Of a stretch of DNA of 40,488 nt, positions 873 to 40,488 are shown in pieces. The position numbers and the translations under genes were made by a program. Position 1 is the stretch's first letter; each line of letters begins with the position of its first letter. The stretch is from a virus: positions 1 to 40,488 of IMG/VR virus record IMGVR_UViG_3300032288_002583. The stretch is one strand, 5' to 3'. The notes below the pieces were generated by a model, which ran no database searches, had not been told where the DNA came from, and worked only from the letters and a program-made list of their open reading frames with translations.

Positions 873-3260
873 TTATGGTTTTCTATAAACCGCTCTACTA
901 CCAGTTATTGTATATAAACCACCTGAAGCTAATGTTGTATCAGCATCTGCCGCAGCATCATTAGCATAATCTCTTATTGTTACTAAAGCTAGTGTTGGTA
1001 CATATACTGTATCATCTAAAGTACCATTTATCCCTTGTCCACCTAATACAGCACTTCTATTTCCAATTACAGTTGAATTAGTTGAATGAACAAATGATTC
1101 AGTACCTTGTGCAGTTGTAAAAGAACCACCAGCATGTGACCTATTACCACTAGCTGTTGTTTGATAACCTTCAGCATGTGAATAATTACTAGCTGTTGTT
1201 AAATAACCTTCAGCATGTGACATATCACCAATTGCTTTTGTACCATAACCTTCAGCATGTGAACCAACACCATTAGCTGTTGTTTGACTACCCTCAGCAT
1301 GTGAACCAAAATTACCAATAGCAGTTGTACCATAACCTTCAGCATGTGAATATGAACCACTAGCAGTTGTTTCTCGACCTTCAGAATGTGAATAATTACC
1401 AATTGCTTTAGATACACCACCTTCAGCATGTGAATAATCACCTTGTGCTGTAGTAAACGAACCTTCAACATGTGATGACTCACCAATTGCTGTTGTATTA
1501 TTACCTTCAGCATGTGAATAATTACCTTGTGCTGTAGTAAACCAACCTTCAGCATGTGCTGATGTATTTGATGCTGATGTATAAGAACCTTCAGCATGTG
1601 ATGCATTACCAATTGCTGATGTACTATCACCTTCAGCATGTGCTGATGTATTTGATGCTAATGTAAATCTACCTTCAGCATGTGAAGATGGACCAATTGC
1701 GGTTGTTTTTCTACCCTCAGCATGTGAACCATAATCACCAATTGCTGTTGTTTGATAACCTTCGGAATGTGACCAATCACCTTCTGCCAATGTACCACCA
1801 CCTTCAGCGTGTGATGAATTACCTTGTGCTGTAGTAAACGAACCTTCAGCATGTGATGAATTACTTTGTGCTGTTGTTTGAGTACCTTCAGCATGTGATG
1901 CTGTACCAAAGGCTAAATTATAACCTTCACCACCATAACCTTCAGCATGTGAATAATTACCTTGTGCTGTTGTACCCCTACCTTCAGAGTGAGATGCTAT
2001 ACCAATCGCTCTTGTTTGTTGCCCTTCAGAATGTGAATAATTACCATTAGTTGTTGTAATATAACCTTCAGCATGTGAACCATTACCAAATGTTGTAGTT
2101 AACCCACCTTCAGAATGTGAATATCTACCAAACGCAGTTGTTTGAAGACCTTCACTATGTGAAACTGGACCACTTGCTGTTGTTTGAAGACCTTCAGCGT
2201 GTGTGAATTGGTCAATTGCCGTAGTATATGCACCTTCAGCATGTGATGCTGTGCTTGTTGCAGTTGTCCCACTACCTTCAGAATGTGATGCATTACCACT
2301 TGCAGTTGTTTGATAACCTTCAGAATGTGATGCATTACCAATTGCTGTTGTCAACCAACCTTCAGCATGTGACATATTACCTTGTGCAGTTGTTTGAACA
2401 CCTTCACTGTGTGATGATTGACCTTGTGCCAAAGTACCAATATAATAATTAACACCATCAAAATAATAACCACCTTCAGCATGTGACCTTTCACCAATAG
2501 CTGTTGTTTGACTACCTTCAGCATGTGAAGCTACACCAATCGCATTAGTTAATTGACCTTCAGCATGTGAATAATTACCTTGCGCTATTGTACTACGTCC
2601 TTCAGCATGTGAACCAAAATTACCACTAGCAATAGAATTCCAACCTTCAGCATGTGAACCATTAATACCACTAGCAGTTGTACCAACACCCTCAGCATGT
2701 GATGCTGTATTTGATGCACTTGTATAAGAACCTTCAGCATGTGAATAAAAACCACTAGCAGTTGTACCAATACCTTCAGCATGTGACGCTATACCAATTG
2801 CTGTTGTATCCTTACCTTCAGCTAAAGATAAAGGTCCAGATGCCAAAGAATTACTATATTTAACAACTATAGCGTTTGGTCCAGTTGATGCTGACCAATA
2901 TGAAGCCCCACCAGTTGTAAAACCACCAACCACAAAGGTACCACCACTATTATTTGTGAATATAATTTCACCAGCAACTGAATTATAAGTACCACCAGTT
3001 ACTTTTATATCTGACGCTAAAATACCTAAATTTTGAGTGAATACATTACCATCACCTAATTCAACACTTAAATTATAAGTAACATTATTAAATGTTAAAC
3101 CAGTAACAGTAACACCACTAAATAATAAACCAACATCTGATAATGGTGCTTTATATGATGAACCTTGTAGGCTTTGAGATGTGTCACCAGTATTGACAAT
3201 GTGTATTAAACTATTTAAATTTACATAAGGTGCAAGCCCCCTATCAGTTAATCTTCCCAT
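873..3260 (-). CDS. SHAEG-repeat (YadA-head-like) fibre protein
   Basis: This 795-residue protein has a short N-terminal module (about 1-60, LAPYVNLNSLIHIV) shared with the downstream paralogue. A small beta-rich segment follows (about 60-125). Then come about 39 tandem units of roughly 14 residues with consensus SHAEGxxTTAxGxx (about 145-720). The C-terminal segment of about 75 residues contains SFVHSTNST and DTVYVPTLA. SHAEG-type repeats belong to the left-handed beta-roll/YadA-head-like class found in trimeric adhesins and phage fibres, so a long trimeric fibre or spike reaching the host surface is the likely role. Variant units (SHSEG, AHAEG, THAEG, SHVEG, SHAGG) and one unit with an insertion (GGYYFDGVNYYIGT) break the regularity. 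The gene lies 21 nt after the cysteine-rich protein and is probably co-transcribed with the baseplate genes. The class is clear; the receptor is unknown. Confidence 0.85.
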   Translation of the reverse strand: MGRLTDRGLAPYVNLNSLIHIVNTGDTSQSLQGSSYKAPLSDVGLLFSGVTVTGLTFNNVTYNLSVELGDGNVFTQNLGILASDIKVTGGTYNSVAGEIIFTNNSGGTFVVGGFTTGGASYWSASTGPNAIVVKYSNSLASGPLSLAEGKDTTAIGIASHAEGIGTTASGFYSHAEGSYTSASNTASHAEGVGTTASGINGSHAEGWNSIASGNFGSHAEGRSTIAQGNYSHAEGQLTNAIGVASHAEGSQTTAIGERSHAEGGYYFDGVNYYIGTLAQGQSSHSEGVQTTAQGNMSHAEGWLTTAIGNASHSEGYQTTASGNASHSEGSGTTATSTASHAEGAYTTAIDQFTHAEGLQTTASGPVSHSEGLQTTAFGRYSHSEGGLTTTFGNGSHAEGYITTTNGNYSHSEGQQTRAIGIASHSEGRGTTAQGNYSHAEGYGGEGYNLAFGTASHAEGTQTTAQSNSSHAEGSFTTAQGNSSHAEGGGTLAEGDWSHSEGYQTTAIGDYGSHAEGRKTTAIGPSSHAEGRFTLASNTSAHAEGDSTSAIGNASHAEGSYTSASNTSAHAEGWFTTAQGNYSHAEGNNTTAIGESSHVEGSFTTAQGDYSHAEGGVSKAIGNYSHSEGRETTASGSYSHAEGYGTTAIGNFGSHAEGSQTTANGVGSHAEGYGTKAIGDMSHAEGYLTTASNYSHAEGYQTTASGNRSHAGGSFTTAQGTESFVHSTNSTVIGNRSAVLGGQGINGTLDDTVYVPTLALVTIRDYANDAAADADTTLASGGLYTITGSRAVYRKP
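1120..2825 (-). repeat. In-frame tandem repeat array coding for SHAEG units (about 42-bp period)
   Basis: The plus strand shows a recurring CCTTCAGCATGTGA core spaced mostly by 42 bp. It reads on the minus strand as TCACATGCTGAAGG, coding for SHAEG. About 39 units can be counted from the translation. The repeat length is a multiple of three throughout, so unit gain or loss keeps the reading frame. The other frames of the array are also open over long stretches only because of this periodicity. Confidence 0.9.
2866..2901. repeat. 36-bp perfect direct repeat, copy 2 (in the SHAEG fibre gene)
   Basis: This is the second copy of the exact repeat at 642-677, in the same reading frame. It lies just before the SHAEG array starts and could serve as a homology block for swapping fibre distal parts. 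Confidence 0.85.
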
Positions 3261-3281: not shown

Positions 3282-5606
3282 TTATTGGTCTTCAAATTCA
3301 TAAATATCGTCATCCATAAAGGTAAAACAATCATTATCTTCAAATTTTTTCTTTTCACATGTTTCAACTGTTAAATCTAAATTAATTTTAAAAGACTTAC
3401 CAGATAAACCCTTATCATCACACCCATACACATCAACAAATGAAGATGTGTTTCCGTTATTAATAAATATAAGTCCTAAAGCATTTGCGATATTATTTAA
3501 TTCATTTAAATATAAATTTTGACTAGGTATTGATGTTGCTGTATTTCCAGTGAAAAAATTATTATTTTCATATACTAATTCACCATCTAGTTCAACCTTA
3601 AATGCCCATATGATTGTAACATCACAACCACTGATTGTTAATACTGGTGCATCTTGGAATTGGAATTCAAATGGTTCATCATTCATCAAATCAAAACATT
3701 CATAATTTTCAAATTGTTTTTGGTAATAACATGTTATACAATCACCACATTGAATTAATGCATCATCTAATACAGTTTGTAAATCAACATTTGAATTAAA
3801 TTCAACTATTGTTGTACCACTACTACAACCTAATACACATGGGTTGTTAAACGCATATTTAAATACATCACCCTCAATCGCTTTAGCTGGGTCTATATTT
3901 AAATCAATTTCCTTTGTGTTTATTGCTAACTTATGGTGATTTATGTTATATTCAGTATTTCTCCAATCAAGATAAAAAGTCCTTCTTTCAGTTGATTCAT
4001 TTGATACCCAAGATTTTTTATTATCAACATATCTATCTAATTCAAAACCAAAAGGCCTTGTTACCTTTATAAAAGTATTTTCAATATTTTCACAATTTTG
4101 TGTTACTTTTATTTTATCTAATAGTAATCCAAAATCTAAACAACAAGTACTAACTTTAATACTTATTCTTATTTTTTTATTTTTAATTTTTTCAATAACA
4201 TCTGGGTCATTTATGGTAGTTGCATATGATAACCATGATGAATTATACCAACCACCCATTAATTGTAATAGTTCTTTATTTTGTAATGTTGTTGTTGGTG
4301 CTTCATTATTTGTTAGATATTGGGTTAAATATAATTGTCTAATAAACGCATCTCTATTTTCTTTACAAATATCATCATATTCACAAGTTGATTCAATACC
4401 AAATGGTGGTAACACACCACTATCACCACTAATTATAATACCAGTAAGTGTTAAATTTTCTTGAATATATGACATTAAATTACCTTCACCAATACCAAAT
4501 ATTTGTTCTTCATAAACTGTTTCATATAATTTCGGTGTTTCCGTTTCAACATCTAATGAAAACCAAGCTTTAAAATTTTCTAAATTAGTTATTGGGTCAT
4601 TACATAATACACCTTCATCTTCCAATTCTGACAATTGAATTTGTAAATCAGCTATCTGTGATTCCAATTCAGCAATTTCAGCTAAACAATCTTCATATGC
4701 TTTACATTTTTCTACTTTTTCTAAGTATGCTTGTTGTTTATCACATATCTTAGCATCAGTTTCTAAAAAATAAGGATTAAATGTGTTATTTTCTGTTGCA
4801 AAATCATTACCTTCATTATATAATTGTTGTGATTGTGTTGATGTATATATTGTTGTATCACACCCATTTGAGGCTAACCAAGCTTCATATTTTATATCAC
4901 CTAATATTGAATTCCATCTTTCTAAACCTAAATCAGTTAAACAACAAACAGTGTAAAATTGTGGTATAACTGGTAAATTAACATTTGTTGATGTAGTTGG
5001 TTGTTTTCCTGGTCCTTGTTGAATAGCTGGGTTATTAAGTTCATCATAATCTGATAAATGTTTACTAACTAATATAGTATAACACATTGCAGTGTATATG
5101 TTTGTGTATTGTACACACTGACCACTTAATGATGCACATTCAAGTTCTTTATCAGCTAATTCATCTTGTAGCATTTCTAATTCAGATTCGATAAGTGATG
5201 CTGCTTCATTAACAGTTTTACCACTCTCCAGAATTGAACAATCAAATTTAAAAATATAATCTAAGTTAACATCTAAACTACAATTTGAATTTTCATTAAC
5301 TAAATAATAATCACCATCATTACCATTTGGATTTATTACGATTTTCATTTCACATGTATCACATGAAACTGGGTCAGACCATAAACATTTTTGGTTTTCA
5401 ACATCAAAAATATAACCCAAATATTCACAACATGGTTTTGTATTAATATTTGTATAAGGTACTAACCCATTATCTTTTTTAACCCAAACACTAACAGAAC
5501 CATCAATTTGATTTAATATTTTACCACCACCAGATATTATCTGGTCTGTTGTTAAACAAGGATTGCTTAAAGATGGTTGACATTTTATTTGGTTTGCTTC
5601 GCCCAT
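3282..5606 (-). CDS. Cysteine-rich tail/baseplate structural protein of unknown family
   Basis: The 774-residue product has more than 30 cysteines, several paired (PCC, TVCC, STCC, CGDCITC). That is exceptional for a cytoplasmically assembled virion protein and suggests metal binding or disulfides formed after release. Near the N-terminus GLVPYTNINTK resembles the GLAPYVNLNSL of the downstream fibre protein, so it may share an attachment module. Two stretches are predicted coiled coil: around residues 130-155 (ESELEMLQDELADKELE) and 310-335 (AEIAELESQIADLQIQLSEL). The C-terminus contains two copies of an acidic motif (YECFDLMNDEPFEF and NDCFTFMDDDIYEF, the latter at the very end). It lies between the tail-protein-I-like gene (26-nt gap) and the SHAEG fibre gene, so a connector between baseplate and fibre is plausible. 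I do not recognise a named family. Confidence 0.75.
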   Translation of the reverse strand: MGEANQIKCQPSLSNPCLTTDQIISGGGKILNQIDGSVSVWVKKDNGLVPYTNINTKPCCEYLGYIFDVENQKCLWSDPVSCDTCEMKIVINPNGNDGDYYLVNENSNCSLDVNLDYIFKFDCSILESGKTVNEAASLIESELEMLQDELADKELECASLSGQCVQYTNIYTAMCYTILVSKHLSDYDELNNPAIQQGPGKQPTTSTNVNLPVIPQFYTVCCLTDLGLERWNSILGDIKYEAWLASNGCDTTIYTSTQSQQLYNEGNDFATENNTFNPYFLETDAKICDKQQAYLEKVEKCKAYEDCLAEIAELESQIADLQIQLSELEDEGVLCNDPITNLENFKAWFSLDVETETPKLYETVYEEQIFGIGEGNLMSYIQENLTLTGIIISGDSGVLPPFGIESTCEYDDICKENRDAFIRQLYLTQYLTNNEAPTTTLQNKELLQLMGGWYNSSWLSYATTINDPDVIEKIKNKKIRISIKVSTCCLDFGLLLDKIKVTQNCENIENTFIKVTRPFGFELDRYVDNKKSWVSNESTERRTFYLDWRNTEYNINHHKLAINTKEIDLNIDPAKAIEGDVFKYAFNNPCVLGCSSGTTIVEFNSNVDLQTVLDDALIQCGDCITCYYQKQFENYECFDLMNDEPFEFQFQDAPVLTISGCDVTIIWAFKVELDGELVYENNNFFTGNTATSIPSQNLYLNELNNIANALGLIFINNGNTSSFVDVYGCDDKGLSGKSFKINLDLTVETCEKKKFEDNDCFTFMDDDIYEFEDQ

Positions 5607-20409: not shown

Positions 20410-22932
20410 TTAACTACCACATGCAATGCAATCGTCAGGATTATCTAATGAACAAGTTAAACCATTCATTGCCTCAATTTCAGCATTACTTAATGTTATA
20501 TTAATTGGTTTAGGTGTTTGAACTTCAACTTTAGGTATTTCATTCACCACAGTATCATCAACACCCAAAGATTGTCTAGCTTGTGTTTTAGAATTACTTC
20601 TTAAATAATACATACCAGTTTTTAAACCTTTTTTCCAACCATAAAATAAAGCTTTATTTAGTTTAGCAACATTAGCATCTCTCATAAATAAATTCATGGA
20701 TTGTGATTGACAAATAAATTTACCACGGTCAGCAGCCATATCAATTATATTTGATAATTTCATTTCCCAAACTGTCTTATAAATTTCTTTAATATGTGTT
20801 GGTATTTGTGGTATATTTTGTATTGAACCATTTTCTTTAATCATCATTAATCTAATTTCATCATTCCATAAACCTAAATCAATTAAATCTAAAACTAAAT
20901 GTTTATTAACAATTACAAATTCACCAGATAAAACATTTCTTTTATATATGTTAGATGTAAAAGGTTCGAAACATTCGTTATTACCCAAAATTTGAGCTGT
21001 TGATGCTGTTGGCATTGGTGCTAATAATAATGAATTTGTTACACCATAAGTTTTAACTTCTTTTCTTAAAGCATCCCAATCCCATCTACCAGATAATTCT
21101 TCAGAATTAACACCCCACATATCAAATTGGAAAATACCTTCAGATAATGGTGAACCAATAAATGTTGAATATGCTCCAAATGTTTTATCAACAACTAATT
21201 CTGAATCATCTTCTTTTAATCTTTTAACTTCATCTCTGTATACTTTTTTAGCCATATCTTTAGATGCAGTCATAGCCGCAAAATAAATTGTTTCAAAAAT
21301 ATCTTCATTTAATTTTTTAGCTAAATCATCTTCAAATGCTAAACCTAACATAGCAAACAAATCAGCCAATCCTTGAACACCAATACCAATTGGTCTATGT
21401 CTTAAATTTGAACGTTCTGTTTCTACTGTTGGGTACCAGTTAACATCAATAACTTTATTTAAATTAACTGCAACTTGGTATGATACTTCATATAATTTAT
21501 TAAAATCAAATGTTCTCAAACCTTTATCTCTAGATTTTGTTTTACCATTTGGTACATTAATAAATTTAGGTAAAGCAATTGATGCTAAATTACATACAGC
21601 TGTTTCATCTTTAGAGGTGTATTCAATAATTTCAGTACAAAGATTTGATGATTTTATTGTACCCAAATTCTTTTGATTTGATTTATTGTTAGCAGCATCT
21701 TTAAATAAAACATAAGGCACACCAGTTTCAATTTGATTTTCTAATATTTGTAACCAAAGTTCTCTAGCACTTACTTTAGTACCTTTACCTAATGATTCAT
21801 ATGATTCATATAATTTAGTGAATGCTTTATCATTTTCTGAATCAACAGCATCTATTAAACCAGGTACTTCTGCTGGGTCAAACAATGTCCAATCAACATT
21901 AGCTTCAACTCTTTCCATAAATAAATCTGGAATCCATAACGCTAAGAATAAATCTCTAGCTCTCATTTCTTCTTTACCGTGATTCTTTTTAAGATTTATA
22001 AAATCTTGAATGTCAGAATGCCATGGTTCCAAATAAACAGCTATTGAACCCTTTCTTTTACCACCACCTTGGTCAACATATCTAGCAGTTTCATTAAATA
22101 CTCTTAACATAGGTACAATACCATTTGATTCACCATTTGTACCTTTAATGTATGAACCTTTTGACCTAATCTTATGTATATTTAAACCAATACCACCAGC
22201 TGATTGTGAAATTGCAGCACAATCTGATAATGTTTTATAAATACCATGTATTGAATCTGAATCAACATCTAATAAGAAACAAGAAGATAACTGTGGTTTT
22301 TTAGTTCCAGCATTAAATAATGTTGGGGTTGCGTGTGTGAAATGACCCGTTGATAATAATTCATAAGTTTTTTGAACTTCTTTTAAATTATCACCCCAAA
22401 TACCAATTGCAACTCGCATATACATGTGTTGTGGTGTTTCGGCAATTTGACCGTCAATCTTTAATAGATATGCTTTCTCTAATGTTTTAAATCCAAAAAA
22501 ATCAAAATCTAAATCTCTATCATGAATAATCATTGATTCAATTTTATCTGAATATTTTTTAACAACTTCATAAACTTCATCAGAAATTAATCCAGCATTT
22601 TCATTTGTTTTTTTATTAACATAATGATATAATTTATCAATAGTTTCTTTAAAACTTTTACTTGTGTCTTTTTTTAGTGATGTAATAGCAATTCTAGCCG
22701 CTAATATTGAATAATCTGGGTGTACTCTAGTTAATGATGCTGCTGTTTCAGATGCTAACTTATCTAACTCTTTTGATGTAACACCATCATATAACCCAGA
22801 AATTACTTTTTGAGCAACTTCCATTGCATCAATATAATCTCTATCTAAATCGTATGTTTGTTTTTTAATTCTTGCCGAAATTTTATCAAATTTCACAGGT
22901 TCATCACTACCATTTCTTTTAACTACTCTCAT
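20410..22932 (-). CDS. nrdA: Ribonucleoside-diphosphate reductase large subunit (class Ia)
   Basis: This 840-residue protein reduces ribonucleoside diphosphates to deoxy forms for phage DNA synthesis, together with the NrdB encoded just upstream. An ATP-cone occupies residues about 1-95. The catalytic set is present: C218 (LSSCFLL), N430, C432 and E434 (NLCTEI), C447 (AVCNLAS), and the paired tyrosines Y775/Y776 (GMYYLRS) of the radical route. The C-terminal shuttle cysteines are in CIACGS (C835, C838). Many segments match the eukaryotic RRM1 type almost word for word (for example PHILARIA-like HPDYSILAARIA, SAGGIG, RPIGIGVQGLAD, APMPTASTAQILGNNE) rather than E. coli or T4 NrdA. That form is also common in Bacteroidota. 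A linker (about 790-820) before the tail is Pro/Val-rich. No intein or split is seen. 19 nt separate it from nrdB. Confidence 0.97.
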   Translation of the reverse strand: MRVVKRNGSDEPVKFDKISARIKKQTYDLDRDYIDAMEVAQKVISGLYDGVTSKELDKLASETAASLTRVHPDYSILAARIAITSLKKDTSKSFKETIDKLYHYVNKKTNENAGLISDEVYEVVKKYSDKIESMIIHDRDLDFDFFGFKTLEKAYLLKIDGQIAETPQHMYMRVAIGIWGDNLKEVQKTYELLSTGHFTHATPTLFNAGTKKPQLSSCFLLDVDSDSIHGIYKTLSDCAAISQSAGGIGLNIHKIRSKGSYIKGTNGESNGIVPMLRVFNETARYVDQGGGKRKGSIAVYLEPWHSDIQDFINLKKNHGKEEMRARDLFLALWIPDLFMERVEANVDWTLFDPAEVPGLIDAVDSENDKAFTKLYESYESLGKGTKVSARELWLQILENQIETGVPYVLFKDAANNKSNQKNLGTIKSSNLCTEIIEYTSKDETAVCNLASIALPKFINVPNGKTKSRDKGLRTFDFNKLYEVSYQVAVNLNKVIDVNWYPTVETERSNLRHRPIGIGVQGLADLFAMLGLAFEDDLAKKLNEDIFETIYFAAMTASKDMAKKVYRDEVKRLKEDDSELVVDKTFGAYSTFIGSPLSEGIFQFDMWGVNSEELSGRWDWDALRKEVKTYGVTNSLLLAPMPTASTAQILGNNECFEPFTSNIYKRNVLSGEFVIVNKHLVLDLIDLGLWNDEIRLMMIKENGSIQNIPQIPTHIKEIYKTVWEMKLSNIIDMAADRGKFICQSQSMNLFMRDANVAKLNKALFYGWKKGLKTGMYYLRSNSKTQARQSLGVDDTVVNEIPKVEVQTPKPINITLSNAEIEAMNGLTCSLDNPDDCIACGS

Positions 22933-22951
22933 TTTTTATTTAAATTTTTAA

Positions 22952-23923
22952 TTAAAAATCACTATCATCTCCTTCAAAGGATAGTTTATTATCTGAACTA
23001 GAATTACCAACTCCCGATTTTGAGTAATCCCCAACTCTTTTCTCAAAGAAATTTGTTTTATTTTCTAAAGCAATATTAACCATAAAATCAAATGGGTTTT
23101 TACTACCAAACATAGGTTCACATTTTAAATCAATTAATAATCTATCAGCAACATACTCTAAATATTGACTCATCAATTTAGAATTCATACCAATTAAATC
23201 AACTGGTAATGATTCTAATATGAATTCTTTTTCAATCTCTAATGCTGAATATATTATTTCTTTAATTCTATCTTTTGGTACTGGATTTAATAAATGTTCA
23301 TTATGTAAATGAACTGCAAAATCACAATGTAATCCTTCATCTCTAGAAATTAATTCATTTGAAAATGATAAACCTGGCATTAACCCTCTATTCTTTAACC
23401 AGAATATGGAACAGAATGAACCAGAAAAGAAAATACCTTCAACTGCTGCAAATGCAATTAGTCTTTCTGCAAAACTATCAGATTTAATCCATTTTAAAGC
23501 CCATTCAGCCTTTTTCTGTACAGCTGGTATGGTATCAATAGCATTAAACAATTTAATTTGTTCTTCCTTATCTTTAACGTATGTATCAATAAGTAATGAA
23601 TAAGTTTCTGAATGTATATTTTCCATCATTATCTGAAAACCATAAAAAAACTTAGCTTCAGTGTATTGTACTTCATTAACAAAGTTTTCAGCTAAATTTT
23701 CATTTACAATACCATCTGATGCTGCAAAAAAAGCTAAAACATTTTTAATGAAATATCTCTCATTATCATTTAATTTATTCCAATCTGATAAATCAGATTC
23801 TAAATCAATTTCTTCAGCAGTCCAGAAATTGGCTTCTGATTTTTTATAATATTCCCAAATATCATGATATTTTATTGGAAATAATACAAATCTACCTGGG
23901 TTATTTTTTAAAATAGGTTCCAT
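22952..23923 (-). CDS. nrdB: Ribonucleoside-diphosphate reductase small subunit (class Ia)
   Basis: The 323-residue protein houses the di-iron/tyrosyl radical centre that feeds NrdA. All expected ligands are readable: D70 (AASDGIVNE), E101 and H104 (ENIHSETY), E162 ([10 protein letters not shown]), E196 and H199 (RDEGLH). The radical tyrosine corresponds to Y108. Motifs such as [20 protein letters not shown] follow the eukaryotic R2 pattern. The C-terminal tail ([11 protein letters not shown]) ends with an acidic-aromatic peptide like that which docks R2 to the large subunit in eukaryotes. The order nrdB-nrdA in one operon fits an equimolar enzyme. It is preceded by the helicase gene at 19 nt. 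The start is fixed by an A-rich leader and the MEPILKNNP beginning. Confidence 0.97.
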
Positions 23924-31394: not shown

Positions 31395-31426
31395 CAAATA
31401 TATTAAATGATATTTAAAATAACAAA
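31395..31426 (-). promoter_or_regulatory. Bacteroidota-type promoter with leaderless geometry
   Basis: On the minus strand, TTTG (31426-31423), a 20-nt spacer and TATATTTG (31402-31395) reproduce the Bacteroidota vegetative consensus TTTG-N(about 19-21)-TAnnTTTG. The ATG of the 197-residue gene begins 4 nt further. The transcription start would thus fall at or next to the ATG. It lies in the 41-nt gap after the giant hub gene. Confidence 0.7.
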
Positions 31427-31431
31427 TATAA

Positions 31432-34400
31432 TTATAAGTTCTTAATATCAAAATCGTCAATAAGTTTTAAATCTGAATCTTTACCACCTTCAAATTTAAG
31501 TATAGCTTTACATAATATTTTGAACATTTTAATATTACTTTGATTAGTTTCGTTTTTACCTTTAAAAGCTGGTAAAGTTGAAGTGTAAGTAACATTTGAA
31601 TTCCAACCTTTCATTTTTTCAACAACAAAGTTTTTATAATCTTGAGTCGCACCTAAACAATAAGTTTCTAGTATTTCTTTTATATTTTTTCTATTATATC
31701 TTGTAAAATAACCTGATAAATTTTTCAAACCAGCTCTAATACCATTATTAATTGTATCAAATACAACAAAATAATCATTTCCTGGGTCAGCTTTTTTACC
31801 AATAGTTCCATTAAATTGTTCACCACCTAATGGTCTTAAATTAAATGGGTTATTATCTTTTGATGTATCGTAATTACCACTTAGAATTGGAACTTGACTT
31901 CCTGAAGTATACTTACTTTTACTTGATGAACTACTACTACCACTATCACTAGGATTAGCTTGTGTTGCTGGTCTAGAATTAGTACCCTCTTCACTTTCTT
32001 CAACAACTCTTAATGGTGTATAAAATCTAATATGTAAGTGATTACTGTGATTTGTCAGTGTTTGCATTATTGAACCATATTTTTCTTTTAATTCTTTTTG
32101 TAAAGTTGTATCATTAAACCATATGATTTGTACATTTTTTTGGTCTTTAACTGTTGTACCAGCTTTAGCTGTTACTGTTTTACCTTGCGTGTTAACATAT
32201 TGTCTATCTTTTTTAACTGTATAAGGTCTATAAGGTGTACTAAATAACAATTCAAGCCATTGTTTTGTCGTTGCTCTACTATAATCACCACCTTTACCTT
32301 CACCATCATCAGTAACATCAGAACCCATACCAAAACCCTTATCATATCTACATTGTAGAGTATCAATATCAATACCTTTTTGGTGACTTTTATGTCCAGC
32401 TAAAGGACCACCCCATAATTTTGAACAGTCTCCAAAAAATATAGTATCAGCTTTACTAGTATTTTTATTAGCTTTATAGAATTTTAATGTTGCTGCTTGT
32501 ATTACTTCAGCAATTTCTCTAACAAGATATGGGTCATTTGAATTACCATTATATGGTTTTAATCCAGTAAATTGTGTATTAGTATTTTTTATACCTAACG
32601 TATCTTTACCAGTTGGTATATTACCTTCACCATCTAACCAATAGTATTTAAGATTTGTATCAATAAATTTAGATTCTGGTTTAGCATTAGGGTCACCAGA
32701 ATAATTTGAACTTCTGATTGATGCTGTAGAATCGCTAGAACCACCTATTAAATTCATATACATAGTATATTTATCAACCAAAGGTGTTTTAGCTTTCTTA
32801 ACTCGATTACCTTTAATTGTGGTTGTCATACTATGTGGTTTTATACTATGAGTTACTTTATAAATTAAATAAGCACCTCTAAACATTGGTATATTATTTA
32901 ATTGAAAATACATCATAGGTTGAATCATTGCAGAACCCATCATTTCTATTTCAGCACTATAAGACCTTGTTTGATAAACATTAAATAAATTGTTACCGAT
33001 ATAAGTTGGTTTACTTTTATCACCACCTTGAGATAAATCTTCAATGGTTTGTAAAGATTCCATAGTTTCTGTAAATTCTCTTTGGTCTAATTTTACACTT
33101 CTAAAATAATTTTGATTTTGTTGACCATAATTAACTGAAAAAACTGGAACATTAAATTCACCTGGTTCTAATGGTTTTGCAAAATCTTCTAAATATTCAT
33201 CAGCTAAATTAGCATTACCAGTACTACTATCCATATTTAAAGATAAACCATCATCTGGATATACAGCATCAACCCCTAAATCTAAATTAACTGATGTTTG
33301 TCCAACATAACAACAAACAAATGATGGTCCTGTTCCATCAAATCCAACTTCATCATTATAAGAGTATGGTGTGAATACTGTTTTAAGTTCACTAATATCA
33401 TTAAAATTAACAAATGTTGGTAGCGGTATAAAATGAAAATTATTATCAGTTAAAATTTTATTAACAACATCAAAGAAACTTTGGTTATAATTTTTTCTAA
33501 TAAGTTCTGAAACTGAATTAATGTTTATGTAAAACTTATCACCAATATCCCAAAATGCCCTATCAACAAATCTAAACGTATCAATTAATTCAGCTTTTGT
33601 TGCACCACTTCTATATTTGTTTGCTAACTCAACATCTTTTTTATTTATGTTTGAACCAGGACATTGTGCAAATAACTCATTATTTTCTGTCCCATTTATC
33701 CATTTATCATTAATTGATGATAACGTTCGATATATGATTAATTTAATAGTTTTATCATCGGTTGTACCAAAAATCTCTTGTTGTAATTGGTCTTCTTCAC
33801 TTTTTTCTTCATTTGGTTTTGTTTCATTTATTTTAGTAAAAAACCTAGTTAAAAAATAATTAAAAAATAAATTTCTACTTGCGGTTATTGGATTGTACTG
33901 ACTTATTTTATTATCATTACTACCATTACTATTGTTAGAACTAAGAGGTTGGATAGTCCCAGAAAAAGGTTGTATAGTCCCAGTAACAGGTTGTATTATT
34001 ACTGTATTGGTTAACTGTGGGTTAGATGCACCAGGTGGTAATGGTATAAAACTTGAAGGTACACAATTTTGTATATAAACACCACTTGTTAATAACCCAA
34101 CAATATTATTCATGATTTCAGTATCTGGTCTTAATTCAAGATTAAACTGATATATGTTTGGTGAGTCAAGAGGAACATCATTTGTTGTTGTAACCATATT
34201 ATAATTTTTCAAAATATTTGGATTATCATTTAAATACTGAGTTATCTTTGAAGTATTCATATCCCCAGGTTTTTCAACTGCTAAATTGATTAAATCCCAT
34301 TTATTTTGATATTTTAAAATAGATTTTTCATCACTTGATTTGTTACTATCTTTACCATACCATATTTCTAATTCTTTTTGAAAATATTTGAATCCATTAA

Positions 34401-37400
34401 CTTCATCATTAACCCAATTTTCAAAATAAGATATTAATTCATTTTTAACTATTCTAGGTAAACCAAGTATTGTATTATCTATCGGTGTATATGCATTGTA
34501 TTGCTTACCAGTTTTACCTGGATTATTATTAAAATACATACCCCATGGATAATTTGTCAAATCACCCTGTTCAACAAAATGTAAATATTCCTTTATTGAT
34601 GGTGGTCTACCTTTATAATCAGGTATTAAAGTTTTACCATTCCTATCTTCCCAATCTATTGGGTCACCATTATTATCTGTTAATGCATATCTCCTTCTCC
34701 ATAATATCCCACCTATCATTAATACCCAAGCTTTTGGTACTTGGACAAATGCACCATTTAATTTAAACATTGATTTTATACTGACTATTCTAGTTGGCGT
34801 GTCCTCACTTTCTATTAAATTATCAACATTTTCAGATTCTGATATAGTATCAAACATGGAATATTGTGAACAATATTCAGGTGTTAACACTCCTTGCCAT
34901 GGGAAAGTGTGTAAAAATAATAGAGCTTTACTTTCTGTTTTTGTTTGATAATTATAAAATCTACTACCGAACAAACTAAAAGTATTGGATTTATTATAAC
35001 CAAATTCAATAAATGGCACATATGGTTTAGATTCACCAATTAAAAATTTTTCAATTAATTCTTTTTGTTTACCAAATGATTTAAAATGACCTCGTTTTTC
35101 ATTTTTAAGAGATTGGTCTTTACCTATCTTTTTATCATATGGTTGAATTGTGTAGGTTTTATTTTTTTCTGTTGGCATTCGATTTTTATAATAATCTACT
35201 GTATCATTCCTGTATGTTAAATAAGAACCACAACGAATATCAAAAGTTATCGTATTTTGACTATAAAATGAACTTATACTACTAACTATTGTGTTTTTTG
35301 GTTGTCCTTCACCTACTAGACCATCATGATTAGTATCTATAGCTAAACCATTAGTATCTAAAGTATTAATTTCTAAAGTAGCATATTTACCACCCAATGT
35401 GTTTAATCTATCTAAATGTTTATTGTATTTATCTAAATTTTTTATATATGCTGATTCAAAACTTGATATTTCTATTGTTTTTTCAGCATAATCTTTTTTA
35501 TATTTTTCAATTGTATCAGAACCATAACTTGGTGCCATTAATTTACTATTATAATCATTAGCGTCAATTATTTTAAATAAGTGTGACCCGTCATCTAATG
35601 ATTTAAATGATTCTAATGAACCTGATAAATTCCTATGGTTACTTACATATATTGTACCAGATGCTGAATTTTTTAACTTACTTTCACTTTTTAATGATTT
35701 TCCATCATAAAATATTACCCCATCAAAATTATTATTAATTGGAATATAAGACCTACCTTTACCATCACTGATATATGTATATTCAATTTTTTCATCGTTA
35801 AGTATTTTAAATATGGGTTTTTCTTTATCATCATCAACACCAGGGTTTTTAATTGTGGTCGTACCTTTTAATCCATTAGTGTTTTTTATATAATTAACTT
35901 GTTCTTTTGGTTCTGTTTTTCCACCTATATTTTGTAATTGTTTAATAATATTTAAACCATTATCAGTTTTTTTGGCAGCTTCATATAAATTATAAGCTTC
36001 CAATTCACCATAATAAGCAACTAAATTAGCATCAATCTTAGAATTATAATTTGAAACACCTAATAATAAAAAACCCCTCATTAATAGTAATCTTATTGCT
36101 TCATCAACATTAGCTGTCGATTCACTTGTAAATAATGAATTATATGGATTTTCATTAACACCTGATGGTGGTGTATCAATAACCGATATTGGAAACCATG
36201 GGTCTTTAATTTGCTCTGGTGTTGAATCAATATCACCCCCTTGTTCTTCTTGTGCTTGTTGTTCTTCTAATTCATTGTCAAATCTGGCAACATCCGTTAA
36301 ACATTTTAACATTTCTTCAACAAAAACAACTTCTTCAATATTGTTTGGTATAATTCCAGGTGCAGAACCTAACCAAGTTTCAAGATAACCTTCATTTCCT
36401 TTTTTCTGTCTATATTCTGGCCATGGGTAAATATGTTTATTTGCAATCTCTTTACCATTAACATTAATTTTACCAGATATTTTATTAAATTCTTCACCTC
36501 TTTTTTTATCAGAATCTGTTTCAGCTTCAACAGATACATCTCTTAAAACTTCCAAAAATATTTCACAACTAATACATAATACTCTAAATATATTTCTAAT
36601 TGTTGGTTCAAATCCAATCGTTGCTTCTGCTTCTTTTGCTAATTTTTCACCAATTTGTTCTTTGGTGGTATTTGAATTACTTTTTAAAGCTGCCATTTTT
36701 TCATCTATGTGATATAATGGTCTAAGTAAAGTATATATATTTATTTTAGTATCATTAGGTAGTGGTGTTTTAATTGAATCTCTAGCTTGTTTTATTACTA
36801 ATCTAACCCTATCTTTATCATTATCATTATTTTCATAAGCACCACCAGATTTTTTAATAGCTATCGGTACTGCAACTTCAGCTTCTTCATTAACTAAATC
36901 TAAATAATTAATTTCAGTAATCTTTATTACCGCATTTTTACCATTTAATATTTCTTCATTTAATTTTAATGAAGTATCTGTAATATTTGAATTAACATTA
37001 GTTATTAATGGTGTTACAGTTTCTTTATAAACTTTAATAGCATCTTCAACTTTTTTAGTTGTTGCATCATCAATTGGTAAACCTAAAACTCCACCATTTT
37101 CAGACCTAAAATAATTATTTGGTGGATTTTGACCATCATACATTGATGTTGACAATGTATCTAAAGCCCCCTTTATATTATTTAAGTCACCTTCAATTTT
37201 TTCATATGCATTAATCTGTTTTACAGAATCATCTTCTTCACTTATTTTTTTAAAACTAAAACTTAAATCATTTAGTTTACCTAACATATCATCAATGCTA
37301 ATTACTAAATTTGCATTATCCCCGTACTGTTTTTTCTTGTCTGCTAGTTTGTCTTGCCCTTTTTTTGTTCTAACTGATGCTCTAATTAAACCCATTAACA

Positions 37401-38019
37401 TATCAGTTAATAAAGCATAAGTGTAACCAATAAATTCAGCTTGTATTTCAAAATTACCAGTTTCAGAATTAAAAGCAGCATTCCATCTTTGCATGTGTAA
37501 ACAATAGTTAACTGTTTTACCATAAAAACCTTTAACTTTAAGACTAAATAACGGATAAGGTAAATCAAAAAACATTCTATATTTTGACATATTACCTTGT
37601 GATAAAATTGCATTACCTCTTACATCTATGAATTTTATTTTAATCATAGGTGCAAATGATGTATTAAATTCTATATCAATACTTTCAATACCTAAACTTT
37701 CAAAATCATCAACTTTATCTTCTGTTATATTCATCACTTCTAATGCGATAGCATCAGTATATCTAGTTGTTAATGAAGGTTGTTTTGATTCTTGATTAAC
37801 ATAACTACCTTCAATAAATGTAACACCACCTGAATTACCAGCATTTGATATAGTTTCTTTACCAGAATAAATAATACTTCTATTTTTTCTAGTTGCGGTA
37901 AATTGTACTTTAATTGATAAATCTTCTGGATTTACCATTACATTATTTGCCATGTTTGGGTCTAACCAAATAATTCTATTTACTTGATTTGCCCCAACAT
38001 TATTAGATGAATTATTCAT
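31432..38019 (-). CDS. Giant baseplate hub protein with two C-terminal murein hydrolase domains
   Basis: The product has 2195 residues. The N-terminal part (about 110-215) shows a hub-like pattern (FSLKVKGFYGKTVNYCLHM, FNSETGNFEIQAEFIGYTYA). Around 1680-1740 is a second hub-like block (YSAEIEMMGSAMIQPMMYFQL, AYLIYKVTHSI) like the gp27/gpD class. Residues about 1845-2000 are MepA/LAS-type metallopeptidase-like: GGPLAGHKSHQKGIDID with H1879 and D1886 as metal ligands, and HLH (H1994, H1996) in SNHLHIRF. After a Ser-rich linker (about 2015-2040) the last 150 residues contain NNPFNLRP and FVVFDTINNGIRAGLKNL (G2093). This is the NPxN...GIRA pattern of phage lysozyme/lytic transglycosylase-like domains. 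It should form the central hub and cut peptidoglycan during injection. Start overlaps the gp53-like gene by 8 nt. The hydrolase assignments are by motif. Confidence 0.82.
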   Translation of the reverse strand: MNNSSNNVGANQVNRIIWLDPNMANNVMVNPEDLSIKVQFTATRKNRSIIYSGKETISNAGNSGGVTFIEGSYVNQESKQPSLTTRYTDAIALEVMNITEDKVDDFESLGIESIDIEFNTSFAPMIKIKFIDVRGNAILSQGNMSKYRMFFDLPYPLFSLKVKGFYGKTVNYCLHMQRWNAAFNSETGNFEIQAEFIGYTYALLTDMLMGLIRASVRTKKGQDKLADKKKQYGDNANLVISIDDMLGKLNDLSFSFKKISEEDDSVKQINAYEKIEGDLNNIKGALDTLSTSMYDGQNPPNNYFRSENGGVLGLPIDDATTKKVEDAIKVYKETVTPLITNVNSNITDTSLKLNEEILNGKNAVIKITEINYLDLVNEEAEVAVPIAIKKSGGAYENNDNDKDRVRLVIKQARDSIKTPLPNDTKINIYTLLRPLYHIDEKMAALKSNSNTTKEQIGEKLAKEAEATIGFEPTIRNIFRVLCISCEIFLEVLRDVSVEAETDSDKKRGEEFNKISGKINVNGKEIANKHIYPWPEYRQKKGNEGYLETWLGSAPGIIPNNIEEVVFVEEMLKCLTDVARFDNELEEQQAQEEQGGDIDSTPEQIKDPWFPISVIDTPPSGVNENPYNSLFTSESTANVDEAIRLLLMRGFLLLGVSNYNSKIDANLVAYYGELEAYNLYEAAKKTDNGLNIIKQLQNIGGKTEPKEQVNYIKNTNGLKGTTTIKNPGVDDDKEKPIFKILNDEKIEYTYISDGKGRSYIPINNNFDGVIFYDGKSLKSESKLKNSASGTIYVSNHRNLSGSLESFKSLDDGSHLFKIIDANDYNSKLMAPSYGSDTIEKYKKDYAEKTIEISSFESAYIKNLDKYNKHLDRLNTLGGKYATLEINTLDTNGLAIDTNHDGLVGEGQPKNTIVSSISSFYSQNTITFDIRCGSYLTYRNDTVDYYKNRMPTEKNKTYTIQPYDKKIGKDQSLKNEKRGHFKSFGKQKELIEKFLIGESKPYVPFIEFGYNKSNTFSLFGSRFYNYQTKTESKALLFLHTFPWQGVLTPEYCSQYSMFDTISESENVDNLIESEDTPTRIVSIKSMFKLNGAFVQVPKAWVLMIGGILWRRRYALTDNNGDPIDWEDRNGKTLIPDYKGRPPSIKEYLHFVEQGDLTNYPWGMYFNNNPGKTGKQYNAYTPIDNTILGLPRIVKNELISYFENWVNDEVNGFKYFQKELEIWYGKDSNKSSDEKSILKYQNKWDLINLAVEKPGDMNTSKITQYLNDNPNILKNYNMVTTTNDVPLDSPNIYQFNLELRPDTEIMNNIVGLLTSGVYIQNCVPSSFIPLPPGASNPQLTNTVIIQPVTGTIQPFSGTIQPLSSNNSNGSNDNKISQYNPITASRNLFFNYFLTRFFTKINETKPNEEKSEEDQLQQEIFGTTDDKTIKLIIYRTLSSINDKWINGTENNELFAQCPGSNINKKDVELANKYRSGATKAELIDTFRFVDRAFWDIGDKFYININSVSELIRKNYNQSFFDVVNKILTDNNFHFIPLPTFVNFNDISELKTVFTPYSYNDEVGFDGTGPSFVCCYVGQTSVNLDLGVDAVYPDDGLSLNMDSSTGNANLADEYLEDFAKPLEPGEFNVPVFSVNYGQQNQNYFRSVKLDQREFTETMESLQTIEDLSQGGDKSKPTYIGNNLFNVYQTRSYSAEIEMMGSAMIQPMMYFQLNNIPMFRGAYLIYKVTHSIKPHSMTTTIKGNRVKKAKTPLVDKYTMYMNLIGGSSDSTASIRSSNYSGDPNAKPESKFIDTNLKYYWLDGEGNIPTGKDTLGIKNTNTQFTGLKPYNGNSNDPYLVREIAEVIQAATLKFYKANKNTSKADTIFFGDCSKLWGGPLAGHKSHQKGIDIDTLQCRYDKGFGMGSDVTDDGEGKGGDYSRATTKQWLELLFSTPYRPYTVKKDRQYVNTQGKTVTAKAGTTVKDQKNVQIIWFNDTTLQKELKEKYGSIMQTLTNHSNHLHIRFYTPLRVVEESEEGTNSRPATQANPSDSGSSSSSSKSKYTSGSQVPILSGNYDTSKDNNPFNLRPLGGEQFNGTIGKKADPGNDYFVVFDTINNGIRAGLKNLSGYFTRYNRKNIKEILETYCLGATQDYKNFVVEKMKGWNSNVTYTSTLPAFKGKNETNQSNIKMFKILCKAILKFEGGKDSDLKLIDDFDIKNL

Positions 38020-38329
38020 AAAGTTTTTTATAATTATTAACTTGTTCTATATATCTTTCCAATGCAGATTCAAAAGGATAAGGTATTCTTATTATCTCAC
38101 CATCTTTTATATCAAATTCCAAACCTCCAAATTGTGGATTTGCTAACATAATTAAAAAACCATGATATGGATTATTATAATAAGTTTGGCTCAATTTGTC
38201 AAGTCTAGTTCTTGTTAATTTATAAACAACACTTTTATCTGTTTGAGCAACTGGTATGTTAATGTATGGCATTGCTAATACACCACCATTAAATCTAAAT
38301 TTTTCATATCTGTCAAAATACTGTGCCAT
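38012..38329 (-). CDS. Small gp53/LysM-like baseplate protein
   Basis: The 105-residue protein contains TRTRLDKLSQTYYNNPYHGFLIMLANP and, near the end, FDIKDGEIIRIPYPFESAL. The order 'bind Y/NNP ... L ... AN ... dG ... iRIP' is typical of gp53-like and LysM/gpX-type small baseplate adaptors that sit at the wedge-hub interface. Its end overlaps the start of the giant hub gene by 8 nt (ATGAATAA), a coupling that fits physical partners. T4 gp53 is longer (196 residues), so this would be a minimal form. Assignment is by motif shape only. Confidence 0.6.
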   Translation of the reverse strand: MAQYFDRYEKFRFNGGVLAMPYINIPVAQTDKSVVYKLTRTRLDKLSQTYYNNPYHGFLIMLANPQFGGLEFDIKDGEIIRIPYPFESALERYIEQVNNYKKLYE

Positions 38330-38342
38330 AATTTTTTATTTT

Positions 38343-40488
38343 TTAAGATGTGCAACCACTAGTTGGACATTTTATACCATTAATTGTGATATTTTTAGTA
38401 CCCGTACCATTTGGCCAACATGAGCAACATGGGTCTTCTAAAATATATTTCCAATCATTTGTACCAACAATATCACCTAATAATATATCTTCTTCTGGAC
38501 ATTCAAATTGAGCTATAGCTCTATCATCATAAAACTTATATTTAAAATCTAAAATTTCAACTTGAAACACCACTATTGATTTTTTTACATTTGAAGGTGA
38601 TGGTGATAAATCCTTTTGTGATTCAGTCATTAATATATCTCTCCAACCGTCTTTTACACTTAAATAATTACCATAATTTGATGTACCTATTTTAAATGTA
38701 GCGATATCTATAGTACCAGATGTCGTTATTAAACTTACTCTAGCATCATATTCTTTAGTCAATTTGGTTGCTGCTGCTATTTTAAAATCACCAATTAGTT
38801 TAGTACCACTATACCCAACTTTAAACATAAAGTTTTTAAATACTAATGCATCTTGGAATACTGCATCATCCCCAGCATACTCACCTGTACTACCACTAGT
38901 TGAACCACTTGTACCATCATTTAATGGTTGAGACCCAGCATTTGCGTTATTATTTTGATTAATTTGATTAAGGTTTGGTTCAACTTGTGATGTTAAACCA
39001 GCAATTTTTTGAGCTTCTGGTGATAAATTATAATCAGCAGCTATTGTTTTAATACCATCAACTGTTACACCACTTGAACTACCTTTAGTAATTTTAATTG
39101 TATCAGCTCTAGGGTCATATATTTCAGTATTAGCATAATAATTAAATGATACAGCATTTTGTAATCTATTAATTGGTCCTCTAAGACTTGAACCACCAAT
39201 AAATGAAAATGACATATCAACATTACAAATCATAGGTTGAACACCAACACCTTCTGGATTTAAATCCCAAACAAGTGGTTCAAATGTAAAATTTAAATTT
39301 TCAATAATAATCTTTGTATGATAAAAATCACCAATCCTTAATATACAAACTGGTGGTCTACCAAATGCTAAGTTATTTGGATTGTTAGTTACACCAGCAC
39401 CTAAAGTTGGTCCCTGTCTCATACATTGTTGTAAAAATGTTAATCTAGAATTAAACCCTTCTGGTGTTGTTGAGTGAAATGCTGGTTGGAAATATTTTAT
39501 CTTTTGTTTTATACTATTATAAGTTATTGGGTCAGTTAAAGATAATTTTTCGAAATAATCACATTCACTATAAAATCTAGATATAGGTAAACTTGGAGTC
39601 TTTGGTGGCTCTGGTACTTTTTCTGGTTCTTTTGGTGGTTCTTCTTTTTTCTCTAAAGCTGGGTCTGGAATAAATTTAACAGTTACGTATCTATCTTCTT
39701 TACAACCAATATTATCATTAACTGAATATTCATAACTCTTATTTCTTAAGTCATCATATTTTGTTCTTGTACCATATGTTGCTAAAACTACTGCATTACA
39801 ACCAGGTCTTGAACTTTTACCACCTGAGTTTATATTAACTCTATCTTTAAATGGTGAATCAGTTAATATATTTGTCTTTAACCAATTAACCATATTTTCA
39901 GCCCTAAGTGTTGATAACGTACTATTTCTATCTTTAGCGTTAGTACCAACATCACTAGCATACCCAAGAACTTCTATTTTACATGATTGACATTTGGTTG
40001 CTAAATAATTTTTTAAATCTTTAGCGTATTCTGGGTCTCTCCATCCTAATGCGTATCTTTTATCACCAATTCTAGCACCTTTAAAATCTTTAGTAGTACC
40101 ACTAGCATTTAAACCAAAATTAGTTCTATCTGGTTCTTCCCTACCATTACCACCTTTTGGACCTTTAGTAGTACTACATTGTGTTGATGACCACGTATCT
40201 ACACCATTAACTTTATATTGATAACATAATTCAAAATAAGTACCTAATCCATTATCTTTACCAACACTACCATCTTTTGTAGCTCTATTAATAACACATT
40301 CAGTTTTACTATAATCCCATATTTTAGCAGTATTATCAAATGATGCTGTCACTACTTTAGTACTATCTGGGCTAAATGTACCAGTATATACAGCACCAGT
40401 ATGCCCAATTAAATTTTTTATTAAAGAACCATTAGTTGCATCCCATATTCTAGAATTACCGTCTGAAGATGCTGTAACTACTTTAGTC
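38343..40488 (-). CDS. WD40 / OmpA-like / baseplate-domain fusion, 5' end outside window
   Basis: The frame is open through the right edge (first full codon at 40487), so the N-terminus is missing and the internal ATG at 40352 is not the real start. At the edge two WD40 repeats are readable (KVVTASSDGNSRIWD; then IGHTGAVYTGTFSPDSTKVV and FDNTAKIWD). About 39880-39995 codes an OmpA-like segment (IEVLGYASDVGTNAKDRN, LSTLRAENMVNWL), as in peptidoglycan-binding OmpA domains. A Pro/Glu/Lys linker follows (about 39590-39660). The rest is phage-like: CILRIGDFYHTKIIIENLNF, VGVQPMICNVDMSFSFIGG, then a Ser/Gly/Thr-rich patch and a cysteine-rich end (CCSCWPNG). It heads the hub gene cluster, so a hub or tail-tube-end protein with host-contacting additions is likely. 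Confidence 0.78.
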   Translation of the reverse strand, partial: TKVVTASSDGNSRIWDATNGSLIKNLIGHTGAVYTGTFSPDSTKVVTASFDNTAKIWDYSKTECVINRATKDGSVGKDNGLGTYFELCYQYKVNGVDTWSSTQCSTTKGPKGGNGREEPDRTNFGLNASGTTKDFKGARIGDKRYALGWRDPEYAKDLKNYLATKCQSCKIEVLGYASDVGTNAKDRNSTLSTLRAENMVNWLKTNILTDSPFKDRVNINSGGKSSRPGCNAVVLATYGTRTKYDDLRNKSYEYSVNDNIGCKEDRYVTVKFIPDPALEKKEEPPKEPEKVPEPPKTPSLPISRFYSECDYFEKLSLTDPITYNSIKQKIKYFQPAFHSTTPEGFNSRLTFLQQCMRQGPTLGAGVTNNPNNLAFGRPPVCILRIGDFYHTKIIIENLNFTFEPLVWDLNPEGVGVQPMICNVDMSFSFIGGSSLRGPINRLQNAVSFNYYANTEIYDPRADTIKITKGSSSGVTVDGIKTIAADYNLSPEAQKIAGLTSQVEPNLNQINQNNNANAGSQPLNDGTSGSTSGSTGEYAGDDAVFQDALVFKNFMFKVGYSGTKLIGDFKIAAATKLTKEYDARVSLITTSGTIDIATFKIGTSNYGNYLSVKDGWRDILMTESQKDLSPSPSNVKKSIVVFQVEILDFKYKFYDDRAIAQFECPEEDILLGDIVGTNDWKYILEDPCCSCWPNGTGTKNITINGIKCPTSGCTS

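Follow-up and report, generated by a model that had tools for sequence, protein, structure and literature searches.

Complementary murein hydrolases predicted in an exchangeable two-slot cassette at the end of a presumed baseplate hub from uncultivated, probably Bacteroidota-infecting phages

In phage T4, gene 53 is followed and overlapped by gene 5, whose product carries a single lysozyme on the baseplate hub, inside the protein and before the beta-helix spike. Virion-associated lysins with 2 lytic domains have also been described, with 5 listed, all from phages of Gram-positive hosts, where the doubling was attributed to thick walls, and only 1 lysin of a Gram-negative phage was shown to be an endopeptidase (PMC5380687). 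CwlP, HydH5, phi11 gp49, and phiMR11 gp61 each unite 2 complementary wall-cutting domains on 1 virion protein, as we predict here, and phi11 gp44 joins an endopeptidase to an SGNH hydrolase, a module also carried by some relatives of the protein described below. Evolved VgrG proteins of type VI secretion and polymorphic toxins likewise place an exchangeable C-terminal enzyme, including peptidoglycan hydrolases, on a constant delivery core; the likeness is one of analogy only, as those proteins kill competitors and come with immunity genes, whereas the hub modules would function in entry, for which an immunity gene is not expected.

For the individual domains, the closest described enzymes are MepA (M74) of E. 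coli, which is a secreted periplasmic enzyme and not a module of a presumed virion protein, and the endolysin of phage Enc34 (PDB 7q47). The latter has the lysozyme fold with its helices in permuted order and is related to GH73 and GH23; its catalytic Glu131 is in the helix following the others, and a beta-N-acetylglucosaminidase activity was proposed from the crystal structure (PMC8943055). Enc34-type domains elsewhere occur as endolysins or in ejected internal proteins, including a Kayfunavirus internal virion protein (9vvp) in which the domain is N-terminal, whereas in the protein analyzed here it lies at the C-terminus of a large, presumed baseplate protein.

The window, by which we mean the whole stretch of DNA analyzed, is a virus record of 40,488 bases with a GC content of 28.5%. 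It encodes, as a sequence-only reading had reported, a polypeptide of 2195 residues, and the span singled out in that reading (31432-32460) corresponds to residues 1854-2195. Coordinates of the features are collected in the table. The product is probably a baseplate hub, because its gene adjoins a gp53-like gene, as gene 5 of T4 does, and because of weak matches to PHROG "tail protein" families, which we found at the end of the core in 21 of 39 relatives. A gp6-like wedge gene was identified in the window too. No similarity to T4 gp27/gp5, P2 gpD, or Mu gp44/45 was detected in the core with hhalign (P 0.1-0.8), and a hub fold was detected in the core neither by sequence nor in a low-quality model (residues 1380-2040, mean pLDDT 54), so the name hub, already used in the earlier reading, is kept on gene position and PHROG matches and not on fold. 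The likeness to T4 lies in a lysozyme-type enzyme on the presumed hub and in the gene following a gene-53-type wedge gene; the window hub differs in bearing 2 predicted enzymes of different chemistry at its very C-terminus and a glycosidase of predicted Enc34 type.

Gene order was kept across the loci reaching that far, with the upstream virion protein, the gp53-like protein, the hub, the 197-aa protein, and a 132-aa protein in succession. A gp25-like identity considered for the 105-aa neighbor was rejected, as this protein resembles gp53 and not gp25. Homologues of the upstream protein are about 1300 residues or longer in relatives, so truncation of the window copy at the edge of the window is probable. 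Directly after the hub stop codon, the motif TAnnTTTG was identified in 50 of 61 loci, compared with 5.8 expected in shuffles. TAnnTTTG is the -7 element of Bacteroidota promoters, including those of Flavobacterium, and Bacteroidota are diderm. The host therefore probably belongs to Bacteroidota. Elsewhere in the window, genes for the large and small subunits of ribonucleotide reductase (20410-23923) lie between the baseplate and replication genes, and a repetitive 795-aa protein (873-3260) has 11 stretches matching a single PHROG of no known function (E 1e-122).

Table. Features of the presumed hub, its C-terminal cassette, and neighboring genes. Positions refer to the window unless a relative is named.
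Feature	Position	Strand	Basis
Upstream large virion protein, weak OmpA-like (peptidoglycan-binding type) match, start unreliable	38343..40352	-	Pfam OmpA E 0.0046; kept in 56 loci
gp53-like baseplate protein, 105 aa, overlaps hub start	38012..38329	-	PHROG baseplate wedge E 1.5e-5; hhalign to T4 gp53 E 3.7e-4; kept in 57 loci
Presumed baseplate hub protein, 2195 aa	31432..38019	-	ORF; 234 IMG/VR relatives; placed after gp53-like gene as in T4
Conserved hub core, residues 1-1757	32749..38019	-	Relatives align across residues ~1-1760
Slot 1, predicted MepA/M74-type LAS metallopeptidase domain, residues ~1795-2020	31960..32637	-	Pfam M74; profile match to PDB 1tzp/1u10 only; alignment
Motif GHKSHQKGIDID, residues 1875-1886, predicted zinc ligands H1879 and D1886	32362..32397	-	Alignment, profile, sequence
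Motif HSNHLH, residues 1991-1996, pattern HxxHxH as in MepA	32032..32049	-	Alignment, profile, sequence
Ser-rich linker, residues ~2012-2046	31882..31986	-	Sequence
Exchanged slot-2 module, DNA similarity to L001/L002 stops then resumes	31434..31920	-	blastn breakpoints
Slot 2, predicted Enc34/PHA02564-type permuted lysozyme-fold domain, residues ~2050-2190	31450..31872	-	PHROG, family profile, alignments, model, Foldseek
NNPFNLR signature, residues 2056-2062	31834..31854	-	N-P-x-N invariant in alignment
E2177, predicted catalytic acid, equivalent of Enc34 Glu131	31489..31491	-	Glu invariant in three alignments; PMC8943055
Bacteroidota-type promoter TTG-N-TAnnTTTG for next gene, downstream border of cassette	31395..31425	-	Motif count
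Conserved gene after cassette, 197 aa	30797..31390	-	Homologue after hub in 77 loci
Separate wall-enzyme ORFs in relatives: Amidase_2, endolysin/chitinase-like, lambda-lysozyme-like	L010:11019-11762, L026:4235-5266, L029:9194-9703, L013:15513-16004

We identified 2 different predicted lytic domains at sequence level on the hub polypeptide, joined by the Ser-rich linker noticed earlier, in which the Ser run begins at residue 2028. The first domain, slot 1, is predicted to be a MepA/M74-type LAS peptidase, in agreement with the earlier reading. Pfam M74 (MepA) matched residues 1850-1887, with 24.6 bits for the whole protein against a cut-off of 25 bits and with 31.8 and 29.8 bits for trimmed queries. 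A profile built from 5 hub LAS domains gave 1 match in the whole PDB, MepA itself (1tzp/1u10, E 0.005), and placed both motifs in register, MepA GHASHQTGLDVD and HRAHMH being aligned with hub GHKSHQKGIDID and HSNHLH. The H-x6-D zinc motif (SHQxGxDxD) is present as H1879...D1886, numbered correctly in the earlier reading, with H and D invariant in the 5 aligned hubs, and the HxxHxH motif with the third zinc ligand is present as H1991, H1994, and H1996. All 6 MepA-type His/Asp positions are kept, MepA H110, H113, D120, H206, H209, and H211 being equivalent to hub H1876, H1879, D1886, H1991, H1994, and H1996, and beyond the motifs there is little likeness. Direct PDB searches with the hub or the LAS domain alone returned nothing useful, the LAS domain had no match in isolate phages, and MepA was not among the matches listed by Foldseek for the low-confidence model of residues 1380-2040. 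Of the zinc site and LAS fold foreseen for residues 1845-2000, the ligand motifs were thus recovered, whereas the poor model did not yield the fold.

Slot 2, with NGIRA at residue 2092, had no match in Pfam but matched a PHROG "endolysin" family (E 6e-9). Searches of isolate phages with tblastn gave weak matches (E 0.03-0.1) to the N-terminal end of internal virion proteins of Kayfunavirus, which carry a transglycosylase annotation, and these led to Enc34, as the matched proteins themselves hit the Enc34 endolysin structure 7q47 with an E of 3.6e-13. A profile of the Enc34 family, built from 12 isolate members, recognized the hub alone among the window ORFs (33.8 bits, E 1.6e-9), and 12 columns of the family alignment are invariant, among them those of N-P-x-N, the 2 Phe, the Gly of GIRA, and a Glu toward the end. 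The window domain keeps NPxN, both Phe, GxRA, and the equivalent of Enc34 Glu131, namely, E2177, located where model helix 113-132 ends, consistent with a catalytic Glu in the last core helix. In an AlphaFold model of the domain (mean pLDDT 70, pTM 0.67), 7q47 was the only convincing Foldseek match (probability 1.00, TM 0.56, E 3.5e-3); the alignment behind this model was made from Enc34 relatives, and the model is not independent of the Enc34 assignment. Slots 1 and 2 were modeled separately, and a joint MAFFT alignment of both was mis-aligned. We regard slot 2 as a putative Enc34/PHA02564-type permuted lysozyme-fold domain, with moderate confidence in the modeled fold. The earlier proposal of a GIRA-type lysozyme or transglycosylase that would model as a lysozyme fold is supported as to the fold but needs refining, as a domain of Enc34 type is neither a T4-type lysozyme nor a plain transglycosylase. 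A T4-like lysozyme was considered and rejected, as PF00959 had no match in the hub and the Enc34 profile matches instead. The RWAPP motif is lost, with ETYCLGA in its place and Tyr2120 at the position of Enc34 Trp79, and the equivalent of Enc34 Tyr95 varies by alignment, being Tyr2128 in one and a later Tyr in another.

Relatives of the hub were encoded by 234 IMG/VR stretches, from which 79 loci were taken, all of them metagenomic contigs. The whole protein had no relative among 50,697 isolate phage records, and no hub relatives were found in bacterial genome contigs, hence no host was obtained via a prophage. Searches of viral contigs with short patterns from each C-terminal domain alone gave no relatives, and the LAS-domain alignment as query found 4 loci. 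Residues 1380-1760 of the core share 42-80% identity across 48 relatives, whereas the region after the core varies in length between 28 and 704 residues, often with no relationship from one relative to another. In 62 hub tails, Pfam identified peptidases of the VanY, M15_4, M23, M74, and DUF2272 types, along with PF18013, GH24 lysozyme, SleB-type Hydrolase_2, SLT, and GDSL/SGNH domains. GH24 (PF00959), the lysozyme family of T4 gp5, was found in L002 (in slot 2), L024, L050, and L061. Relatives thus fill slot 2 with PF18013, GH24, and SleB domains, which suggests that its role is catalysis.

With architectures assigned by local profiles, 35 of the 62 tails paired a peptidase with 1 glycan-cutter type: peptidase then glycan cutter in 29, the same followed by a third hydrolase in 4, and the reverse order in 2. 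The other tails held a peptidase only (11 hubs, 1 cut off by a contig end), a glycan-cutter type only (7), a glycan cutter with SGNH (4), a peptidase with an alpha/beta-hydrolase (1), or no enzyme (4). Two peptidases or 2 glycan cutters on 1 hub were found in none of the 62 tails. For 21 of the 35 paired hubs, Pfam or the Enc34 profile supplied a name for each member of the pair, and in the remaining 14, the class of the unnamed second domain was taken from motifs and position. A second set of 15 new tails comprised 12 pairs, 1 single, 2 without enzyme, and 0 like pairs; in both sets, the hubs share ancestry and the pair counts are not independent events. The window hub had been read as carrying 2 complementary cutters in an unusual injection design. 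Both domains were recognized and their chemistry, peptide cross-links versus glycan strands, is predicted to be complementary, but the design is not unusual, since dual cutters are known in phages (CwlP, HydH5; PMC5380687) and are common in this lineage. SGNH/GDSL hydrolase modules were also observed at the hub C-terminus of L068, L041, L053, L063, L070, and L072, and alpha/beta-hydrolase-like modules, recognized by motif, at that of L021, L031, and L062; both kinds are possible peptidoglycan or surface-polysaccharide esterases.

Comparison of closely related loci at the DNA level indicated how this variety arises. L034 and L050 share 96.9% identity over 10.5 kb up to the border of slots 1 and 2 and 93.4% identity over 8.2 kb from the end of the hub gene, and between these matching flanks, slot 2 is a different domain. 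L068 and L069 share 96-99% identity across aligned flanks of more than 20 kb, yet their cassettes differ entirely (SLT-like and SGNH versus DUF2272 and PF18013), with the breaks in the linker and at the stop codon. The pairs L054/L061 and L001/L002 have the same kind of cassette difference at lower identity. L001 and L002 are the 2 nearest kin of the window and share its slot 1, with PF18013 and GH24, respectively, in slot 2; similarity between the window and either of them ends near 31920 and returns at the stop codon. Slot 1 required at least 25 changes on the tree of 60 cores, slot 2 at least 29, and the whole architecture at least 42. The hub C-terminus is an exchangeable cassette between the conserved core and the conserved promoter and gene downstream, swapped whole or slot by slot, probably by recombination.

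In several relatives, wall enzymes lie beside the hub as separate ORFs. The peptidase-only hubs of L013, L023, L029, and L035 are directly followed by a small ORF of one type, predicted to be of phage-lysozyme type. Three of these 4 ORFs were checked in PHROGs and matched an endolysin family (E 3e-17 to 5e-23), that of L023 was assigned by motif, and that of L029 matches lambda lysozyme in the PDB (E 5.9e-5). The hub ORF of L029 is itself split in 2 by a stop codon at 5329-5333, either a sequencing error or a real truncation. An Amidase_2 ORF comes after the enzyme-less hubs of L010 and L025 (E 1e-18 for L010, the one tested), and after the hubs of L011 and L026 comes an ORF whose matches, examined for L026, are weak and of endolysin/chitinase type.

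We consider it probable that the locus encodes a 2-slot murein-hydrolase cassette on a presumed hub, opening Bacteroidota peptidoglycan for DNA injection. Enzymatic activity, virion location, a role in entry, and selection by host wall chemistry are all inferred in the following scheme. Tail contraction would bring the tail tip past the outer membrane into the periplasm, where the zinc peptidase of slot 1 would cut peptide cross-links and the glycosidase of slot 2, with E2177 as its acid, would cut glycan strands, and the resulting local hole in the thin peptidoglycan would let the tube pass and the DNA be injected. Cutting both bond types locally would open the hole sooner than either activity alone, and this would account for the cassette mostly keeping one of each. 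Variety within each enzyme class would probably follow host wall chemistry, such as O-acetylation, and the SGNH modules could act as de-acetylating esterases. With somewhat less assurance, we favor a wider reading for uncultivated large Bacteroidota phages, in which the hub end is a polymorphic 2-slot site where complementary cutters, joined in some hubs by an SGNH or alpha/beta-hydrolase as third module, are swapped between constant borders and track host wall chemistry.

Other readings of the same data differ in what they change. The lysins may be carried by a large tail protein other than a hub, such as a tip, adhesin-like, or tape-measure-like protein, as might be suspected from a core that gave no hub fold by sequence or in a poor model; with an ORF that follows and overlaps the gp53-like gene, as gene 5 does in T4, sits within the baseplate gene block, and ends its core in a region weakly matching PHROG "tail protein" families, we allow this a minor share of the probability. 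It is less likely that only 1 cutter is active and that the Enc34-like domain has decayed to a peptidoglycan-binding module. The loss of RWAPP, the uncertain Tyr95 equivalent, and a model of moderate confidence would fit such decay, but the Glu131 equivalent, NPxN, both Phe, and GxRA are kept, and slot 2 of relatives holds bona fide lysozyme families (PF18013, GH24, SleB).

That the enzymes serve lysis or act against competing phages, for example, after release from the hub, rather than entry, seems improbable to us: some relatives do encode the enzyme as an ORF of its own, as this would allow, but most relatives fuse the enzymes to the conserved structural core in the baseplate block, and a low-copy structural protein would be a poor carrier for a lysis enzyme. 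We attach very little weight to the view that misassembly of mixed metagenomic populations created the apparent exchange of cassettes. Every sequence is a metagenomic contig, and any single pair could involve a chimera; assembly error could not cover all pairs, because the same 2 breakpoints, the linker or slot border and the stop codon, recur in several independent pairs and samples, where the ORFs remain open and the domains complete.

Compared with the dual lysins of Gram-positive phages, the entry cassette proposed here differs in that the promoter points to a diderm Bacteroidota host and in that the pair is exchanged on a constant core. What is new is the complementary pair, with a presumed diderm host, swapped on a constant baseplate core; dual virion lysins themselves are known. 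Our literature search found no account of such an exchangeable complementary pair on a baseplate core with a presumed diderm host, and one may exist elsewhere. A large lineage with a presumed diderm host that pairs a peptidase with a glycosidase would break the Gram-positive-only rule of PMC5380687, and suggests either that cutting both bonds is necessary in thin walls as well or that the pairing is imposed by wall modification. Natural swaps on a near-identical background amount to a clean experiment, with the same hub and different enzymes, and the cassette modules represent a ready source of matched enzyme pairs.

Among the relatives, the slot-2 domains of L034/L046, L036/L058, L030/L054/L059/L078, and L005/L006/L079 form 4 families without PHROG or Pfam names for the members tested and are candidates for undescribed lysozyme-like enzymes. 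Further, slot 2 of L057 (tail residues ~265-428) matched the Enc34 profile with 28 bits and has the NNPG and YAPPxEND signatures, and its Glu candidate (AYQEGF) precedes NNPG in an apparently non-permuted order; both circular permutants of the Enc34-type enzyme may occur within a single hub family.
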